A stretch of 48,890 nt of DNA from Bacteroidaceae bacterium (GTDB taxonomy: Bacteria > Bacteroidota > Bacteroidia > Bacteroidales > Bacteroidaceae), in NCBI GenBank assembly GCA_017470525.1, contig JAFUYM010000063.1, forward strand, positions 1 through 48,890, given 5' to 3'. How positions within the stretch are numbered: position 1 is the stretch's first letter; each line of letters starts with the position of its first letter. Under the pieces are notes generated by a model. That model saw only the letters and a list, made by a program, of their open reading frames with translations, was not told the DNA's origin and ran no database searches. This document shows positions 1,303 through 48,890 of this stretch, in pieces. The position numbers were made by a program, and so were the translations under genes.

Positions 1303-1345
1303 CTCCGTTCAGAAAAATCTTAAATGATTCAACTTTTCCACATTT

Positions 1346-1412
1346 AGTGTACCCGAGGGGTACGACGTACCGTACTCGAGGGGTACGCCCTGGTGTACCC
1401 CTCGGGTACACT
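1346..1412. repeat. Cluster of three palindromic 15-mers (inverted repeat)
   Basis: Two 18-base arms, 1346-1363 and 1395-1412, are perfect reverse complements. Each contains GTACCCGAGGGGTAC or its complement. A third near copy, GTACTCGAGGGGTAC, lies between them at 1372-1386. Each copy is itself an imperfect palindrome (GTACCC...GGGTAC). The cluster lies between two polysaccharide glycosyltransferase genes read leftward. It could fold as a strong hairpin in the transcript (attenuator or processing site) or be a small mobile palindrome. Confidence 0.8.
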
Positions 1413-22986: not shown

Positions 22987-24450
22987 TCACTCTTCATTTT
23001 CTGTTGAAAACCCATCAAAAAACGTGCACATCAGACCCGAATCGTCCCACACATAACCCTTCCGCAACGTAACAAACACCGTGATGGGCTTCTTCTTCTC
23101 CAACACAGAGCAGCGCACGTACGGATAGAAAGCCGCAGGGTCGTTCGTAAAATAAACGTTTCTCACCTCATCCAAATACTGCGGCAACGATTTTTTCGTA
23201 GGGCGCAACACCTCAAAGTCTGTAATCCGCTTGCTCAGTCCTGTCACCATACGATAAGCCCCATCTACAATCCAAACAATCGGTCTCCCCTCAAAACTCA
23301 CTCCATCCACACACACCGTGCGTGGGTCATTAGAATCCTTCCCTGGCAAATTCAAATCCACCGCTCTGCTGCACACCGTGTCGGGCGTCACATTCTGCAC
23401 AATCGGCGAGGCGTATCCCGTTGCACGTTCAAACCGTCCATCAGAGTTCGACAAAAAAGCATAGAAACTGGAAGAAATGCTCCCACTATTATTCATATTC
23501 AACGATGCCACATCGCCATCCAAAAAACACCGCTCATATTTCCGTCCCGACACATCATCCTTCCACTTTCTTTTCCCGAAATTCATTGGTTCAAACGCCT
23601 CAGCAGGAAACACGCGTGGCACAGGAGCGAATAATCCATCCACCGCCACCACATGCTGCTTCGTCACCACCCGTTCGCCCATTGCCACCTCTGCCACCTT
23701 CGGAGTCAGCATCTTCATGTTCCACTCCCCCTTCACATCGGGAAAATACAATGCATAACACCCCATCGAATCCGTCACCGCATCCCCCATCAGCACCTTT
23801 TTCCCCTGATAAATAGCGACTTTCATCCGTCTGTTTCCCCTGTCGTTCCATTCCTTCACAGTAGGGTGTTTTTTTCTTGGTTCGATATGCCCAAACACCA
23901 TCAGATGCCTCTCTATGGGTTGTTCCACACCATAGATTGTATCCTTTTCCACCGTCACCATGCGTTTCCACAACGAATTACTCACCATGCGCGGTGCCTC
24001 CAGATTCAGCCGCCTCACATCTCCACTTTCTCCTTCTTTCAACTTCAAATAGACAGGCAGCAACCGACTCCAATAACCATAACTTTTCCAATTTGTCATG
24101 TAGCGGGTGTATGCCCTCAGTTCATAAAAACCCGACCCGTAGAGGCTATCCACCCACACCTTTCCCTCAGCACGTCCTCCCTCCAACGGCAATTTCCGCC
24201 TCTGAATGACATTCCCTGCCGCATTCAACAGTTCCACATAGAGCACACGGCTGAAATCCGTCGCCCCCTCATGCCCTTCTCGCTCCACAAAAGCAGAGAA
24301 GTGAATGGTGTCACCGAGGTCACATCCATTCACTCTATCATACTCCACTGTCACCTTTTCACGTGGCAGAGGTTCCTGTGCATACGATACACCAAACGAT
24401 ACAGTCAACATCCATACAAATAACTTCCAACGCTGTCTCATGTCATTCAT
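22987..24450 (-). CDS. Secreted MG2-domain protein, shortened paralogue
   Basis: A 487-aa exported protein (signal peptide to about residue 24) homologous to the larger protein encoded just upstream. The N-terminal macroglobulin-like MG2 domain includes SRVLYVELLNAAGNVIQRRK and GFYELRAYTRYMTNWKS. A beta-sandwich stretch (VTDSMGCYALYFPDVKGEWN) follows, then a plug-like C-terminal region (GRPIVWIVDGAYRMVTGL; YLDEVRNVYFTNDP). Compared with the 957-aa paralogue it lacks most of the central region and the final domain. Its ATG at 24450 overlaps the upstream stop by eight bases; an alternative ATG is at 24441. It probably acts in the periplasm or at the surface. Molecular function is unknown. Confidence 0.8.
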   Translation of the reverse strand: MNDMRQRWKLFVWMLTVSFGVSYAQEPLPREKVTVEYDRVNGCDLGDTIHFSAFVEREGHEGATDFSRVLYVELLNAAGNVIQRRKLPLEGGRAEGKVWVDSLYGSGFYELRAYTRYMTNWKSYGYWSRLLPVYLKLKEGESGDVRRLNLEAPRMVSNSLWKRMVTVEKDTIYGVEQPIERHLMVFGHIEPRKKHPTVKEWNDRGNRRMKVAIYQGKKVLMGDAVTDSMGCYALYFPDVKGEWNMKMLTPKVAEVAMGERVVTKQHVVAVDGLFAPVPRVFPAEAFEPMNFGKRKWKDDVSGRKYERCFLDGDVASLNMNNSGSISSSFYAFLSNSDGRFERATGYASPIVQNVTPDTVCSRAVDLNLPGKDSNDPRTVCVDGVSFEGRPIVWIVDGAYRMVTGLSKRITDFEVLRPTKKSLPQYLDEVRNVYFTNDPAAFYPYVRCSVLEKKKPITVFVTLRKGYVWDDSGLMCTFFDGFSTENEE

Positions 24451-27316
24451 TGATTAGAAATACACCATCCTTCGTCATCCCTTCAGCCGAAATGTATAAC
24501 CGACGTGCCGACGAGTTGTTCCAAAACTCCACCGTCGCATGCCCGTTGGCATCCGTCTTCACGTCGGGTGCCCAAAAAATGGTGCGTCGAAAATCTTCCA
24601 TAGGCGGCAGTTTGCTATAGTCATCCATCTCAAACGTGTCGGGTTTATCGAATGCCTGAAAATAGGTTTTGCGCAACCCGTTCTTCTTCCATGGCACATG
24701 ATGGTGCGTATAGACGAAAACCGTCACAGGGCTCCTTGCCTTCAAATCATCACAAAACACATAGCGGTCTGGGGCTGACTCATTTTCAGTAATATAAATG
24801 GATTTCACTTCATCCAAAAACACAGGGAAACTCTCCAATGTGTTATCGAATGTGGCAATATTATGAATTGTCAGGTTTGTCGTACTTGTCACCCCTGCAT
24901 AGCAATTGTTCAAAATCCAAATGACAGGGCGACCTTTATAACTCAATCCATCTCGATAAATGTGAGCATCTGCAGGGTCAGTGGAGTTGTAACTCGTTTT
25001 AAAATGGGTCAAGGAGTACCAATCATCCAACAATGGAAATGCATTAGATGGTGCAACGCTCCCTGGAAAGGCTTCCAACGAAACTCGTGTCCACTCCCCC
25101 TTATTATATCTAAACTTCTTTTTCAAAATATTATCATTGGGTTCCGTCGGTAAAAACCTGTCTGAACCTGATGCCTCAAAGAGTGGGTTCCGCACGTACA
25201 GCCACTCCATCAATCCTGGAATCGTGCCTCCTTCATCATAAATATTGTCCACCTCCTTGTCAATATCATAATAGATGTTTGCCCAGTGCCTGCCATGCTC
25301 TTCACTTTCCCACGCGGCACGTGCACCATCAAAGATTCTTCGACGGGCTTTCACTTTCACCTCTTTCAGCACATTTTCACGCTTCAAGATAAGCATATTT
25401 TCCAATTCGAATTCCAGAGAATCAGATACATTAGTAAACAGATTCGGGGTCAAATGCGCCAAGGTGTCGGTTTCGTATGGAGAAAGCCAGCGAGCCATAG
25501 GTGAAAAGTGTCTATCAAGTGTCACCCGATAGTCTTGGCGATGGTCACTCACACCTATCTTTCCTGGTTTTCCAAATCCTAAATTATAGGCGTTTTTCAC
25601 CACAATCTGCATATTCCATTCGTTCCATGCATCCGGCATTTCAAAGGCAAATTGTCCAAGGCTATCCGTCACACAATCACCAGCCACCCATTCGCCATGT
25701 CCTGCCTTGCGGTCCACCCAAATGAGATAAGCGCGCAACGGTTCGTCCGTCACAGGTATGTCTTTTTTTCTTTGCAACAAGGTGCCATTGATGTAGAGTT
25801 TATCCTCTATATTATATGTGCGCGCAAACTCTTCTTTTCCAGCCATCAAGTTCCAGCGATAACGTCTCCATCCTTGCACCATCATCAACAAATCGGCAGC
25901 AACACGGTGTTCGTGGTCATCGCTTTCAAAATAGTACTCTGGATTCCGAATGTAACCCTTCACATCGCTCGACAGGAGCATCCACGTCAGCGCATTGCCC
26001 TCTTTTCCATTCGTCATGGTTGCCACGTCGATTGCTGAGAATGAGAGACTTGCATTGGGTGCCGACTGAATATCCACCTTCACCTTTCCACACGGAACGA
26101 GGTGATCATCAGGAGTTGACACCATCACCTTGTTGGTGGCATCCAACTTAGGGCAGATGAAGAACAAGCGTTCAGCCATCACACGCCCATCCGAATCGAA
26201 CACTGTCAATTGATTCACTCCAGCCGGCAGACTTTCCCTCGCAAACTTCAACGTCATCTGCGGTCGGCAACTCAGCGTGTCACAGGCAATCAGGATGCCA
26301 TCGTGCATTAAGGTATAACCCAACAGGCGATAGTGCATCGCCACCGTTGTCGTCATCGAAGCCACCACATTTGAGTCGCCAAGCGTGTTGAGGGTCAAAC
26401 TGAGACCCTGTGGCATGGCTTCAGGCAACTGAAACTCCCGTTTCTTTCCGTCGGCAGTGGTCAACTGGAGGTATTTCGGCTCATCATCAGGCGTGATGTT
26501 GAAATAGCCACGTCCGTCCTTATAGGTGACTGCCCCTCCCAACAACTGCTTCTGTTCGTCCAAGATGACAGCATCCACATCGAAATACCGTCCCTCATCA
26601 TCATTCACAGCAAAAGCCACCCTCGACGGTAAACCCTCCACCAGATCACCCCCTTCGGGATAGAAATTCACATGCACCTCTCCATGTGGCAGCCGCTTCA
26701 TGGTCAGTTGGTTCTGATTCTTATTCCCGGCATCTTCACGAAGAATCTCCATTGGCACTTCACGGTAATCGGGTTGTCTTTTACGATAGGAAAACTTGTC
26801 AATTTCCATACGCGAATAATCGCCCACTTCTTTGGGTTGCTTGAAAATCGGGAGCACCCGCGAGTAAATCCCCGTACCGCCCCAATTCATCATGTATTTT
26901 GTGTATGCCCTTAACTCATAGAACCCGGTCACATAGAGCGTGTCGAGCGTAAAGTCACCCACTGCTTCCCCCTCTTCAATATGGACTTTGCGACTCTGCA
27001 CAACTTCCCCACTTGGATTCACCAACTCCACATACAACACGCTGCTCATGTCGGTCGGCTTGCCCGTATCAGTGCGGATGACATAGCCTTTGAACCAAAG
27101 TTTCTCTCCCTTGAAGTAACCCGTGTTGTCCAAATGCAGATACACCTTCTCCTGTGGCACTTCATGCCCAAACGACCACACGTGCTGCATCAGCCGTACC
27201 AGATTGACATACTCTGGCGAACCTGTCAAAACCGAGTCGGACAGGTTGATGTTTTGCCCTAATGCCACCAGCCAACAACTCAGCAGCAAGGCTCCAATCA
27301 TAGTGAATCGTCTCAT
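24443..27316 (-). CDS. Secreted MG2-domain (alpha-2-macroglobulin-like) protein
   Basis: A 957-aa exported protein with a signal peptide to about residue 20. The MG2 region (about 50-170) carries EKVYLHLDNTGYFKGEKLWF, YVELVNPSGEVVQSRKVHI and GFYELRAYTKYMMNWGG, typical of Bacteroidetes macroglobulin-related proteins. Further beta domains follow. Near the C-terminus a plug-like segment (GRPVIWILNNCYAG; FLDEVKSIYITEN) precedes a final domain with FRRTIFWAPDVKTDANGHA. There is no thioester motif visible, so it is not a classical protease-trapping macroglobulin. Its ATG overlaps the stop of the upstream regulator gene as ATGA, so the two are translationally coupled. Confidence 0.82.
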   Translation of the reverse strand: MRRFTMIGALLLSCWLVALGQNINLSDSVLTGSPEYVNLVRLMQHVWSFGHEVPQEKVYLHLDNTGYFKGEKLWFKGYVIRTDTGKPTDMSSVLYVELVNPSGEVVQSRKVHIEEGEAVGDFTLDTLYVTGFYELRAYTKYMMNWGGTGIYSRVLPIFKQPKEVGDYSRMEIDKFSYRKRQPDYREVPMEILREDAGNKNQNQLTMKRLPHGEVHVNFYPEGGDLVEGLPSRVAFAVNDDEGRYFDVDAVILDEQKQLLGGAVTYKDGRGYFNITPDDEPKYLQLTTADGKKREFQLPEAMPQGLSLTLNTLGDSNVVASMTTTVAMHYRLLGYTLMHDGILIACDTLSCRPQMTLKFARESLPAGVNQLTVFDSDGRVMAERLFFICPKLDATNKVMVSTPDDHLVPCGKVKVDIQSAPNASLSFSAIDVATMTNGKEGNALTWMLLSSDVKGYIRNPEYYFESDDHEHRVAADLLMMVQGWRRYRWNLMAGKEEFARTYNIEDKLYINGTLLQRKKDIPVTDEPLRAYLIWVDRKAGHGEWVAGDCVTDSLGQFAFEMPDAWNEWNMQIVVKNAYNLGFGKPGKIGVSDHRQDYRVTLDRHFSPMARWLSPYETDTLAHLTPNLFTNVSDSLEFELENMLILKRENVLKEVKVKARRRIFDGARAAWESEEHGRHWANIYYDIDKEVDNIYDEGGTIPGLMEWLYVRNPLFEASGSDRFLPTEPNDNILKKKFRYNKGEWTRVSLEAFPGSVAPSNAFPLLDDWYSLTHFKTSYNSTDPADAHIYRDGLSYKGRPVIWILNNCYAGVTSTTNLTIHNIATFDNTLESFPVFLDEVKSIYITENESAPDRYVFCDDLKARSPVTVFVYTHHHVPWKKNGLRKTYFQAFDKPDTFEMDDYSKLPPMEDFRRTIFWAPDVKTDANGHATVEFWNNSSARRLYISAEGMTKDGVFLINE

Positions 27317-29208
27317 AGGTTTAGGTTTTGTAATTCAGGAAGTTCTACATTTTTCAATTTCTTTCTCAATCGGCTTTTTGCAGTTCGGTAAGCCGAATAG
27401 GAGGGGATTTCGAGCACCTCCATCACCTGTTCGTCAGTCATGCTTTCCGAATAGGAAATCATGCATATCACCTGTTCTCTTGGGGTCAACGAAGGGCACA
27501 ACTTCTCCAGTTTGGCAAGCAATGCCGCATTCTTGGGTTTCTTTGCCGACCATGCTGCTACCAAACTGTCCCAGAAGTTTTCGGCACCCGCTTTTTCGTC
27601 CTCCAGCGCCCCTTCGTCGGCATCGTCGCCCCATTTTCTGCCGAAGTCTGACTGCCGTCTCCTCTTTCGGTATCGATAAATCGCGAAGGCCACCGTCCCC
27701 GCCATCGCCAAAATGCCCAAAAGCCACCACGTTGCATGCAGTAAACGGTGTTCGGCTTGTGCCTGTGGTTGAGGAATCAGTTCATAGCCCGCCCCGAACG
27801 TGTGTTCACGGTCATAAATCAACGAAAGAGAGTCGGGCACTTCTATCATGGTGTCAATCATCACCTGTTCCTCTTTGGTCAGCGCATCCGACTCGGTGTG
27901 CAGAATCAGACGGAAACGCCTACGGAACTCAAACTCGTCGTTGTAGTTGAGTGGTGTGACCAGCGGGAAGCCTTCCCGATTCAGTGTGCCAACCACCGAA
28001 GGCTCTCTTGCAAGCAGGAACTCACGCACGGCGGCAAACTCATCGGCAGTGAGCAGATGAGTGTCCTCATCCTCCAAATAACGCTCCACAAACTTCTCGT
28101 AATAGTTGTTGGGAACGCTGCGACCATCGAAGAGATAAACCAATTGAATATCAGGATTTTCAGCAAAATCAAAACGGATGTTGGAGAGTTGGTTGAGGGT
28201 CGGAATCATGGTTTTCGCACTCATGCCCACAAACTCCACATATTTGCCACGATGCCGCTTCGCCAAAGCCTCAATGACCGCCTTACCTCGTTGGGCAGGA
28301 GATTCGTAAGTGGCTGTGAGTGAGTTGGCTATGGGCATAGGTTTCAGCAATAAAAAGTCGTTGCCCAACACAGCCGCATCCTGCATGGCAAGCAAATGGT
28401 CAACCGAGCACTTCGACTGATAGTTCACCACCCTGCCTTCGGTGAGACTAATTGTAAGTGTCACATCGTCAGCAGGATGCACATAAACAGGTATCAACCA
28501 CTCATCATCTTCCATTGCCGATGCCAACACCAACAGGGATGCCCGCTTCACTTCAGCCGACAACATGAAGGAACCGTCGTTTTGCAAGTGGCAGGAGGCA
28601 AGGGGACGGCGGGGTTCATCGCCCAATGCCGACTCGTCGCACAAAAATAACGACAGGTGTTCCTCTTTCGGTCGATAGCCTTTCAACTTCCCATGAATCA
28701 ATGCCTTGCCATCACCAAATGAATGATTGCAATCGAACATCTGACGAGTGGTTCGCTGTTGGAAACGCACGTTTTCAGCCGTGTTGCCCTCGGTCATGCC
28801 CAGCAACAAGGCGCGGTTCCGATGAATCTGCGATTCCACAAAATCGACCGACCGCACATCGTCAGCCAAAGGAGCGAATGACAGCACAAAAGCCCACTCA
28901 CCACGTTCGTCCAGCCACATGCTTTTGCCCAATTCCAACCCTTGAGCACTCTGCACCGCATAGGTGCGTCCACGTTCATCGCGCAAATGGCAACACCTCC
29001 GAATGAAAAATGACGTGTCGGGTTTGCCGCGAGCCACAAGCGAAAGCAAGGTGGCGGTGTCGTTCACCGTGATGCCTGTCACCGCATACTTCTGTTGGTT
29101 GGAAAAATACACGTTCACCTGCTGCCACACTTTCTGCTTTGCCACCACCCCAAGAGGCAGCAGCCAAAGCATCATATAAATAAATAATGTACAGCCATTT
29201 TTTCTCAT
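27313..29208 (-). CDS. Membrane-spanning regulator: periplasmic TlpA-like sensor, TM helix, cytoplasmic HTH
   Basis: A 631-aa one-component regulator candidate. A signal-anchor or signal peptide (residues 1-24) leads to a large periplasmic part. Residues about 300-440 resemble the thioredoxin fold of TlpA/DUF4369 proteins, but the CxxC site is absent (GMSAKTMIP in its place). A TM helix WWLLGILAMAGTVAFAIY lies at about 494-512, followed by a basic stop-transfer RKRRR. The cytoplasmic tail ends with a LuxR/sigma-4-type HTH beginning LTPREQVICMISYSE at residue 574. The ATG at 29208 is chosen because an upstream ATG at 29229 would start at the predicted transcription start. It is coupled by ATGA to the MG2 gene. 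The ligand is unknown. Confidence 0.75.
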   Translation of the reverse strand: MRKNGCTLFIYMMLWLLPLGVVAKQKVWQQVNVYFSNQQKYAVTGITVNDTATLLSLVARGKPDTSFFIRRCCHLRDERGRTYAVQSAQGLELGKSMWLDERGEWAFVLSFAPLADDVRSVDFVESQIHRNRALLLGMTEGNTAENVRFQQRTTRQMFDCNHSFGDGKALIHGKLKGYRPKEEHLSLFLCDESALGDEPRRPLASCHLQNDGSFMLSAEVKRASLLVLASAMEDDEWLIPVYVHPADDVTLTISLTEGRVVNYQSKCSVDHLLAMQDAAVLGNDFLLLKPMPIANSLTATYESPAQRGKAVIEALAKRHRGKYVEFVGMSAKTMIPTLNQLSNIRFDFAENPDIQLVYLFDGRSVPNNYYEKFVERYLEDEDTHLLTADEFAAVREFLLAREPSVVGTLNREGFPLVTPLNYNDEFEFRRRFRLILHTESDALTKEEQVMIDTMIEVPDSLSLIYDREHTFGAGYELIPQPQAQAEHRLLHATWWLLGILAMAGTVAFAIYRYRKRRRQSDFGRKWGDDADEGALEDEKAGAENFWDSLVAAWSAKKPKNAALLAKLEKLCPSLTPREQVICMISYSESMTDEQVMEVLEIPSYSAYRTAKSRLRKKLKNVELPELQNLNL

Positions 29209-29237: not shown

Positions 29238-29245
29238 CAAAGTTA
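29238..29245 (-). promoter_or_regulatory. Promoter of the regulator/MG2 operon
   Basis: CAAAGTTA reads TAACTTTG on the minus strand; the -33 TTG (29266-29268) is exactly 20 bases upstream. It is preceded by a CCCTGTAACA box 28 bases above the -7 element. The whole arrangement is repeated at 48735-48780. Confidence 0.8.
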
Positions 29246-29273
29246 CAAAATATTCTTCAACACCACAATAGTT

Positions 29274-29372
29274 TGTTACAGGGTCTCTATGCCAAGTCAC
29301 TGTATATCAGTTAATAAAAATTTTCACAATAGGTAAATTGTAACAAAATTGACCCTGTAACAAAGTTGTAAC
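29274..29372 (-). promoter_or_regulatory. Putative operator array, TGTAAC/GTTACA boxes
   Basis: Read toward the regulator gene: three direct GTTACA boxes (plus coordinates 29367-29372, 29356-29361, 29339-29344), the last two separated by 11 bases, then an inverted box CCCTGTAACA (29274-29283). The same boxes with nearly the same spacings precede the right-edge gene. They probably bind a dimeric regulator; the HTH protein of this operon is the obvious candidate. Confidence 0.7.
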
Positions 29373-29488
29373 AAACGGTTTTCACCCTATTTTTCACCCG
29401 ATTGACACCAGCAGTCACCCTACCCTTTCTGCACATACTTCACCAACCTCTGTAAAAAAGCCCCTTTTCTGGCTGTTTCAGGACCTCT

Positions 29489-29557
29489 CAACCGACGTCG
29501 TCGACATCGGTCAACCGACATCGTCGACATCGGCGAACCGACATCGACGACGTCGCT
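29489..29557. repeat. Three 23-base GC-rich tandem repeats
   Basis: Units at 29489-29511, 29512-29534 and 29535-29557 all begin AACCGAC at their second base and are built from palindromic pieces such as GTCGACATCGG and GACGTCGTCGAC. The composition stands out from the AT-rich surroundings. Confidence 0.9.
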
Positions 29558-48596: not shown

Positions 48597-48656
48597 AAGT
48601 GCTAAAAAACAGCCCAAATGTTTCAAAATTGAAAGTATGTTTCAAAATCAAAAGTG
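48597..48656. repeat. Short direct repeat ATGTTTCAAAAT
   Basis: ATGTTTCAAAATTGAAAG and ATGTTTCAAAATCAAAAG follow one another just upstream of the GTTACA boxes of the right-edge gene. Confidence 0.6.
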
Positions 48657-48657
48657 T

Positions 48658-48744
48658 GTTACAGGCACGATTTTGTTACAATTTGCCCTGTTACGGACTT
48701 TTTTCATGCTGACTATCAAAGGTTTGCATTTTCACCCTGTAACA
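48658..48744 (+). promoter_or_regulatory. Putative operator array before the right-edge gene
   Basis: GTTACA (48658-48663), GTTACA (48675-48680) 11 bases on, GTTAC (48690-48694), and the inverted box CCCTGTAACA (48735-48744). Order and spacing match the array upstream of the regulator/MG2 operon. Confidence 0.7.
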
Positions 48745-48772
48745 CACTCTTGCAGGATACACAGAAAATGCA

Positions 48773-48780
48773 TAACTTTG
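48773..48780 (+). promoter_or_regulatory. Promoter of the right-edge gene
   Basis: TAACTTTG with a -33 TTG (48750-48752) exactly 20 bases upstream. The -7 sequence is identical to that of the regulator/MG2 operon. Confidence 0.75.
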
Positions 48781-48823: not shown

Positions 48824-48890
48824 ATGATGAACAAGTTCTTCCGCATCCTATTACTTTTCCTCGCGACTGTCCTGCCGCTCCATGCCCAGC
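48824..48890 (+). CDS. Start of an exported protein gene, cut by the window edge
   Basis: Only 22 codons are visible: MMNKFFRILLLFLATVLPLHAQ, a clear signal peptide with a likely cut after HA or HAQ. The start may be the ATG at 48824 or at 48827. The mature protein lies beyond the window, so no function can be given. Its promoter and operator layout matches that of the regulator/MG2 operon, which suggests that it encodes a related regulator or an MG2-type protein. Confidence 0.75.
   Translation, partial: MMNKFFRILLLFLATVLPLHAQ

Follow-up and report, generated by a model that had tools for sequence, protein, structure and literature searches.

A promoter module with paired inverted TGTTACA boxes upstream of MG2-like genes in Bacteroidaceae

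Two promoter regions and their relatives in one genome

The window analysed here, a contig of 48,890 nt from a Bacteroidaceae bacterium, contains two promoter regions of matching layout, site A (29238–29373, minus strand) and site B (48657–48780, plus strand). Each has a distal box and an inverted proximal box, a middle element between them and a promoter at the gene-proximal end (Table 1). Site A precedes the genes for P0001 and the MG2-like protein P0002, and site B a gene that was assigned to the MG2-like group from its first 22 codons. A preliminary description of this DNA had reported the boxes of both sites and their matched spacing, and re-measurement agrees with it: AATTT(A/G)CC is separated from CCCTGTAACA by 48 bases in A and 47 in B, and CCCTGTAACA from TAACTTTG by 28 bases (8 + 20) in both.

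Table 1 Features of sites A and B and of the adjoining genes, in window coordinates
Feature	Position	Strand	Remark
P0002, 957-aa MG2-like secreted protein	24443–27316	−	Pfam MG2 18.5 bits, cut-off 32.8
P0001, 638 aa	27313–29229	−	N-terminal part related to secreted proteins; transmembrane helix at ~500–525 (by eye)
P0001 C-terminal HTH part, contains YRTAKSRLRKKLK	27316–27615	−	weakly like sigma region 4 / LuxR type
Site A −7 element TAACTTTG	29238–29245	−	consensus as in PMC7366714
Site A CTATTG, −33 region	29266–29271	−	C and T conserved; no T at the first position of TTTG
Site A proximal box TGTAACA	29274–29280	−	C precedes the box in 8/9 independent modules
Site A IHF-like stretch ATACAGTGACTTG	29293–29305	−	6/9 consensus positions
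Site A central element CTGATATACAG, YTG-N5-CAR	29300–29310	−	starts at +35 from the distal box in 12/13 modules
Site A T-tract, TTTTTA	29315–29320	−	columns 27–30 are T in 11/13 modules
Site A distal box, TGTTACA running on into ATTT	29339–29345	−	tail conserved; box not demanded in the genus search
Site A extra box, makes the N11 pair	29356–29362	−	within a 14-nt perfect inverted repeat, 29272–29285 / 29351–29364
Site A second extra box, TGTTACA	29367–29373	−	11 bp further upstream
Site B extra box (48657–48663) with flanks	48649–48665	+	inverted copy (16/17) of proximal box and −33 region, 48736–48752
Site B distal box TGTTACA	48674–48680	+	
Site B T-tract TTTTTT	48699–48704	+	
Site B central element CTGACTATCAA	48709–48719	+	
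Site B IHF-like stretch TATCAAAGGTTTG	48714–48726	+	9/9 consensus positions
Site B proximal box TGTAACA	48738–48744	+	
Site B CTCTTG, −33 region	48747–48752	+	
Site B −7 element TAACTTTG	48773–48780	+	
Gene behind B, start MMNKFFRILLLFLATVLPLHAQ	48824–48890	+	cut by contig end; 21/22 residues match the N-terminus encoded by the MG2-like gene behind C

A looser search of the own genome (G000) returned three matches in all and none in the controls. The third match, site C (G000:C76:1353–1476, minus strand), shares ~94% identity with B across 207 bp, and the MG2-like gene that follows it encodes an N-terminus departing from that of the gene behind B at one of the first 22 residues; by their sequences, B and C are recent duplicates. 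For this reason, and because A differs from B outside the boxes in a sequence comparison, it is the comparison of A with B that is informative in this genome. The proximal half of the module occurs without the distal box at three promoters, all in the own genome: site D (C30) before an MG2-like gene, site E (C76:12082) before a TPR-type regulator, and a promoter on C33 before a CarbopepD_reg_2 protein. The full module is therefore not always needed.

Several further sequence features were seen around these sites. At site D (L036 693–783, G000:C30), 97% identity to B starts at the proximal box with its CC, and the sequence upstream of it, distal box included, differs from B, with the breakpoint at the operator. 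Site B contains a second inverted repeat of 17 nt (48717–48733 versus 48764–48780; 88%, and 82% in C) that pairs the stretch right of the middle element with the −7 region, and just upstream of B lies a 19-bp direct repeat, ATGTTTCAAAATCAAAAGT, in 2.3 copies (48618–48660), which is present before C too. Contigs break within similar MG2-like paralogs (the right edge of the window; L037, L039 and the left end of L004), and the number of paralogs in this genome, which is 83% complete, is therefore uncertain; the genomes compared are mostly draft.

Tandem arrays that repeat at exactly 23 bp, with a palindrome of ~12–17 bp in many of the units that varies in sequence by array, occur in the window (1345–1400, 29488–29555) and in L134 (3702–3840), L135 (7728–7837), L133 (8243–8308), L037 (1238–1300), L038 (2253–2313, 6452–6514), L106 (1770–1850), L143 (5526–5589) and L142 (15362–15421). 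Period 23 accounts for 13 of 78 array rows (two describe one array and two overlap) in 288 kb of fetched DNA; periods 20, 21, 22 and 24 account for 2, 3, 1 and 1. In genomes G063 and G068, arrays of TGTTACAAATGTAACA and TGTAGCAGTTGCTACA lie at the same place upstream of the module.

Conservation and common anatomy of the module

The window contains TGTTACA-N57/58-TGTAACA twice, whereas 300 mononucleotide shuffles contain it 0.003 times on average. We searched 45 genomes of the genus with the proximal half, TGTAACA-N5-TTG-N19–21-TAnnTTTG, and obtained 14 sites in 8 genomes and none with the reversed control; although the search left the distal box free, 11 of these 14 sites carry a TGTTACA at precisely 64 or 65 bp upstream. 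The complete pattern, TGTTACA-N56–59-TGTAACA-N5-TTG-N19–21-TAnnTTTG, was found at 12 sites, in 8 of the 399 genomes searched from the family (reversed control 0 in 399), and added one other genus, represented by two sites in G118. Since G005 was not drawn in the family scan, the total is 13 full modules in nine genomes and two genera, with invariant order and near-fixed spacing. The preliminary description had judged such exact spacing unlikely by chance, and the shuffles and reversed controls bear this out.

A slightly looser pattern matched one of 393 genomes in an order-wide scan, namely the own genome (reversed control 0); this set included six genomes of the family, the own among them. 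The genus, family and order patterns require exact boxes and miss variants, and with this exactness 37 of the 45 congeners have no match whatever to the promoter pattern in the genus search. The matches to a pattern that tolerated three mismatches, found in 11 of 61 genomes, were discarded as noise: outside the own genome all of them had three mismatches, and the reversed control gave 5 hits in the 61 genomes.

The module is retained where the surrounding DNA is not. Three P0001 orthologs with 60–61% protein identity keep it before the gene though the flanks have diverged, and in species with an MG2-like protein 64–72% identical, boxes and spacing agree while the rest of the spacer has diverged. 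The earlier proposal of one shared regulatory module is upheld: orthologous promoters conserve the module, and it is found almost exclusively with one gene family. We regard its reality as close to certain.

Alignment of the 13 modules gives a common core: TGTTACA with an ATTT-like tail, a T-tract, YTG-N5-CAR, and TGTAACA-NNCT(A/C)TTG-N20-TA(A/C)CTTTG, in which the distal TGTTACA and the proximal TGTAACA are inverted and 64 or 65 bp apart. The invariance of TGTAACA, TTG and TAnnTTTG (and of the distal TGTTACA in the two G118 sites) is no evidence, as the searches demanded these elements; they did not prescribe the tail, the middle element, the CT or the precise spacing, nor, within the genus, the distal box. 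Where we count nine independent modules, the near-duplicates own_C, G020, G068 and G118a have been left out by our choice. In this set, C before TGTAACA and the CT of NNCT(A/C)TTG are each present in 8 of 9. The conserved middle, consisting of T-tract and YTG-N5-CAR, had been missed in the preliminary description. The T-tract lies ~25–30 from the distal box (AAAAGT occupies columns 25–30 in both G118 sites), YTG-N5-CAR starts at +34 in the one exception, G063, and TTR follows four bases past CAR in 10 of 13 modules, being absent in G005, G023 and G035a. The variable spacing base sits right of the middle element (18 or 19 bp).

IHF-type bending sites have an A/T-tract upstream of a core, for which WATCAANNNNTTR is the consensus used in papers on IHF. 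At one fixed offset this consensus matches the nine independent modules in 64 of 81 positions, compared with a mean of 41 and a maximum of 48 in 500 shuffles, a test that rewards any conserved motif resembling IHF. Individual sites match at 6 to 9 of 9 positions, with 6 of 9 in A, G023 and G035a. The resemblance of the middle element to an IHF site is suggestive; YTGA lies outside the IHF consensus, and the middle could therefore be the site of another dimeric regulator.

The Bacteroidota primary-sigma promoter has TTTG at −33 and TAnnTTTG at −7, as stated in PMC7366714, and the preliminary description had considered both elements of sites A and B to fit it. For the −7 element this holds, with TA(A/C)CTTTG in all 13 full modules (TAnnTTTG was demanded by the search). 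For the −33 element it does not: all 16 module and half-module promoters have A or C ahead of TTG, so that TTTG never occurs, compared with T at this position in 22 of 36 other promoters (Fisher P 3e-5, relatedness ignored), which are pattern matches in fetched DNA and not mapped promoters. From a consistently poor −33 element beside a regulator site we infer that activation is likelier than repression, a preference that is modest.

Additional box copies are present in 5 of the 13 modules at positions that are not fixed, which fits a predicted binding site. Counting the outermost TGTTACA, site A has three boxes in a row, and the box 17 bp upstream of its distal box and the proximal box lie in the two arms of a perfect 14-nt inverted repeat. 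In site B the extra box belongs to a 17-nt inverted repeat (94%) whose other arm is the proximal box with the −33 region, as if the site of the protein ran across both. In G118a, TGTTACA lies 19 bp above the distal box and TGTAACA 10 bp further (83 and 93 bp above the proximal box), and G063 carries nine boxes in a palindromic array 134–237 bp above the proximal box. The preliminary description had proposed GTTACA-N11-GTTACA as the operator. The exact pair is restricted to A, B and C and found in none of the 10 modules from other genomes; with up to two mismatches it occurs 6 times in the window, compared with a shuffle mean of 3.2 (10 of 100 shuffles reach 6), so that by itself the direct pair is weak evidence. 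We therefore reject it as a conserved operator and consider it a lineage-specific extra; the conserved pair is the inner TGTTACA with the inverted TGTAACA.

Target genes and candidate regulators

Genome scans with listing of downstream genes, as the preliminary description had proposed, place 11 of the 13 modules before MG2-like genes, four of them by way of P0001 (A, G005, G023 and G035a). The MG2 label of the target proteins is weak, with Pfam MG2 scores of 18.0 to 26.2 bits in the four proteins for which a match is reported (cut-off 32.8). The MG2-like family is large, with matches in all 45 genus genomes, and the module marks a subset of it: 60 of 60 other MG2-type upstream regions lack it with one mismatch per box and 62–67 bp allowed (reversed control 1 hit), these regions being from among the matches listed that align near the start of P0002, three of them shorter than 731 bp, in a test that overlooks modules separated from the MG2-type gene by another gene of its operon, as happens with P0001. 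Among 29 MG2-like loci, the exact box pair is found in G063 and G068 only, and P0001 intervenes in G005, G023 and G035. MG2-like orthologs without the module are those of G013, which is syntenic and has a plain promoter, and G014, with other sequence upstream.

Both G118 modules precede gene types other than MG2-like. One lies between a TPR-type HTH gene and the gene for a 137-aa secreted protein, ahead of small proteins, one of which has a Pfam NVEALA match below cut-off; among the genes behind the other, one has a TolB_like propeller match, below cut-off as well. With its three parts kept by related species at nearly constant spacing, the element before the surface-protein genes of this gut bacterium is very probably a real switch.

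In L004 1–12000 (G000:C76), the TPR-type regulator behind half-module E is clustered with the MG2-like gene behind C, with small secreted proteins of similar N-termini containing TR(S)GGEPGG, a Wzy_C-type membrane protein and a lectin/transglutaminase-like protein. The cluster looks like a peptide or surface-polymer system.

The sequence of P0001 suggests a fusion of a thioredoxin-fold-like secreted protein, a transmembrane helix and an HTH. Its C-terminus is predicted to form an HTH (mean pLDDT 81, fair confidence) with weak similarity to sigma region 4. Own-genome relatives of its N-terminal part (L040, L041; G000:C70, C17) end without an HTH and look, by eye, like secreted thioredoxin-fold proteins.

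The preliminary description had suggested the HTH protein of the operon as the common factor, in which case P0001 would autoregulate site A and also control B via the GTTACA/TGTAAC boxes. Full-length orthologs (60–61% identity) are present in 3 of 44 congeners, and the module directly precedes P0001 in all four of the 45 genomes having it, own included (hypergeometric P 0.0005, relatedness ignored), which together with the predicted HTH speaks for this model. It is nevertheless unlikely, as P0001 is absent from four of the eight module-bearing genus genomes, where modules are intact: searches gave no match in G007 and G020, weak partial matches in G063 and G068 (E 2.6e-5 and 6.2e-5; 22–33% identity), and no HTH of the P0001 kind at E ≤ 0.1 in any of these four by HTH profile. 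The syntenic locus of G063 and G068 consists of permease, module and MG2-like gene, with no P0001 between. Assembly completeness of 81–98% weakens this argument for single genomes only. Strong matches to the HTH profile are confined to 4 of 45 genomes; six weak ones (E 0.00025–0.066) fall in five genomes without the module, and the three that are readable have other helices. We therefore reject P0001 as the general factor: it is at most one of the readers, and may act on its own promoter.

The HTH motif RTAKSRL is common to the four P0001 proteins and to the TPR-type protein of G118, whose gene lies immediately upstream of a module; it is extended to YRTAKSRL in three of the four and in the G118 protein, and to FRTAKSRL in G005. 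Over the whole domain the G118 protein is 25% identical to the P0001 HTH, and its Pfam TPR_12 match (E 3e-6) is just below cut-off. Upstream of the modules of G007 and G020 lie decayed reading frames like the start of TPR-type regulators (LLSACADDK..., by eye). The TPR-type protein E of the C cluster has a weak TPR match, a half-module before its gene and a helix without RTAKSRL. Among the genes compared, no single regulator gene tracks the module, given the absence of P0001 from four of eight genomes and of RTAKSRL from the HTH of E. The module is probably read by more than one kind of membrane-tethered HTH regulator.

A possible mechanism and its known counterparts

A tripartite promoter-control module, in which two inverted boxes with an IHF/HU bend between them control a weak promoter, is a reading to which we give about an even chance. 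A DNA-binding protein would recognise the TGTTACA core at the two inverted sites, 64 or 65 bp apart, and an IHF/HU-family protein would bind the T-tract and YTGANWNNCAR-N4-WTR between them. The resulting bend would bring both sites together at the promoter in a loop. The proximal site would abut, and partly overlap, the −33 region of a promoter that is otherwise typical of Bacteroidota; this promoter, being weak with its (A/C)TTG, would more likely be activated than repressed. The putative regulon would comprise mainly a subset of MG2-like secreted proteins and their operons, read by TPR-type HTH proteins generally and by P0001 for its own promoter where present.

The same layout could serve repression, with a repressor at both boxes, the bend between them and the −33 region blocked. 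Paired operators with a bend between them are a classic repression layout, and the proximal site extends into the −33 region; we nonetheless consider such a loop doubtful, as the −33 element is consistently off-consensus (TTTG in 0 of 16), which suggests a promoter needing help and is not decisive. It is conceivable that the shared sequence was merely inherited with duplicated genes and is functionless, as B, C and D arose by recent duplication and have signal peptide and leader in common. This is the most improbable of the readings considered, because boxes and spacing agree while the spacer has diverged, both between A and B and in the species at 64–72% MG2-like identity, and because syntenic G013 has a plain promoter without the module. 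An RNA element was rejected, with no Rfam match at gathering threshold in the window.

The inverted boxes could also delimit an invertible promoter segment or a mobile element. GTTAC-type invertible promoters of Bacteroidales carry GTTAC-N7-GTAAC within one arm, flanking ~280–290 bp (PMC12118408). Site A has its perfect 14-nt inverted repeat, and among the neighbouring genes examined one, for a tyrosine recombinase (Pfam Phage_integrase, 148 bits; L037 4740–5657, G000:C60), adjoins an MG2-like gene at its 3′ end; this MG2-like gene is probably the continuation of the one behind C. This recombinase, however, lies at the far end of the gene, away from the module, and may be a housekeeping XerC/D; GTTAC-N7-GTAAC has no exact match in the window and two with one mismatch, neither at A or B; and the boxes are 64–65 bp apart with −33 and −7 outside them in 13 of 13 modules. 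On repeat type, box spacing and promoter position we reject this reading as very improbable.

The bent-DNA module of paired boxes thus remains our preferred reading. More broadly, it may tentatively be seen as one member of an undescribed class of Bacteroidota control regions, with an inverted TGTTACA pair at a near-fixed 64–65 bp, an IHF/HU-like bend at a set point and membrane-anchored one-component HTH readers (TPR-type or thioredoxin-like sensors with a recognition motif in common) that would pass an envelope signal to MG2-like and peptide-cluster genes. In our judgement, few Bacteroidota control regions beyond the core promoter are understood in detail, and we know of no DNA site for many membrane-bound HTH proteins of this phylum. 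The module provides a precise site model with testable anatomy, defined target genes and a candidate regulator family, and makes the link from envelope sensor to promoter directly testable.

Known systems share parts of this design. The fusA2 site of Cur (BT4338) of Bacteroides thetaiotaomicron contains TGTTACA (PMC6989115), as do the module boxes, whereas the proposed Cur site is a compact palindrome, wwwTATGTTnTAnAACATAwww, and the module half-sequences lie 64–65 bp apart; by eye, the Cur palindrome TATGTTnTAnAACATA is at neither box in any of the 13 modules, and we reject a Cur site. The Bacteroidales invertible promoters (PMC12118408) share the GTTAC/GTAAC letters within inverted repeats and differ in spacing, repeat structure and promoter position. 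Like the primary-sigma promoter of the phylum, the modules have TAACTTTG or TACCTTTG (one half-module TATCTTTG) with TTG at 20 bp; unlike it, they have (A/C)TTG at −33 within a conserved CTMTTG adjoining TGTAACA. Our literature search found no counterpart for the sequence, spacing and gene context of the module.

Arrangements of this kind, in which a bend separates paired operators beside a weak promoter, are known from other systems. In IHF-bent control regions of proteobacterial promoters and lambda, paired regulator sites have an IHF site between them. The module differs in belonging to another phylum, in its degenerate match and in its other outer boxes. What it shares with these regions is the fixed spacing of two regulator boxes and, between them, an A/T-tract followed by a sequence like WATCAANNNNTTR.
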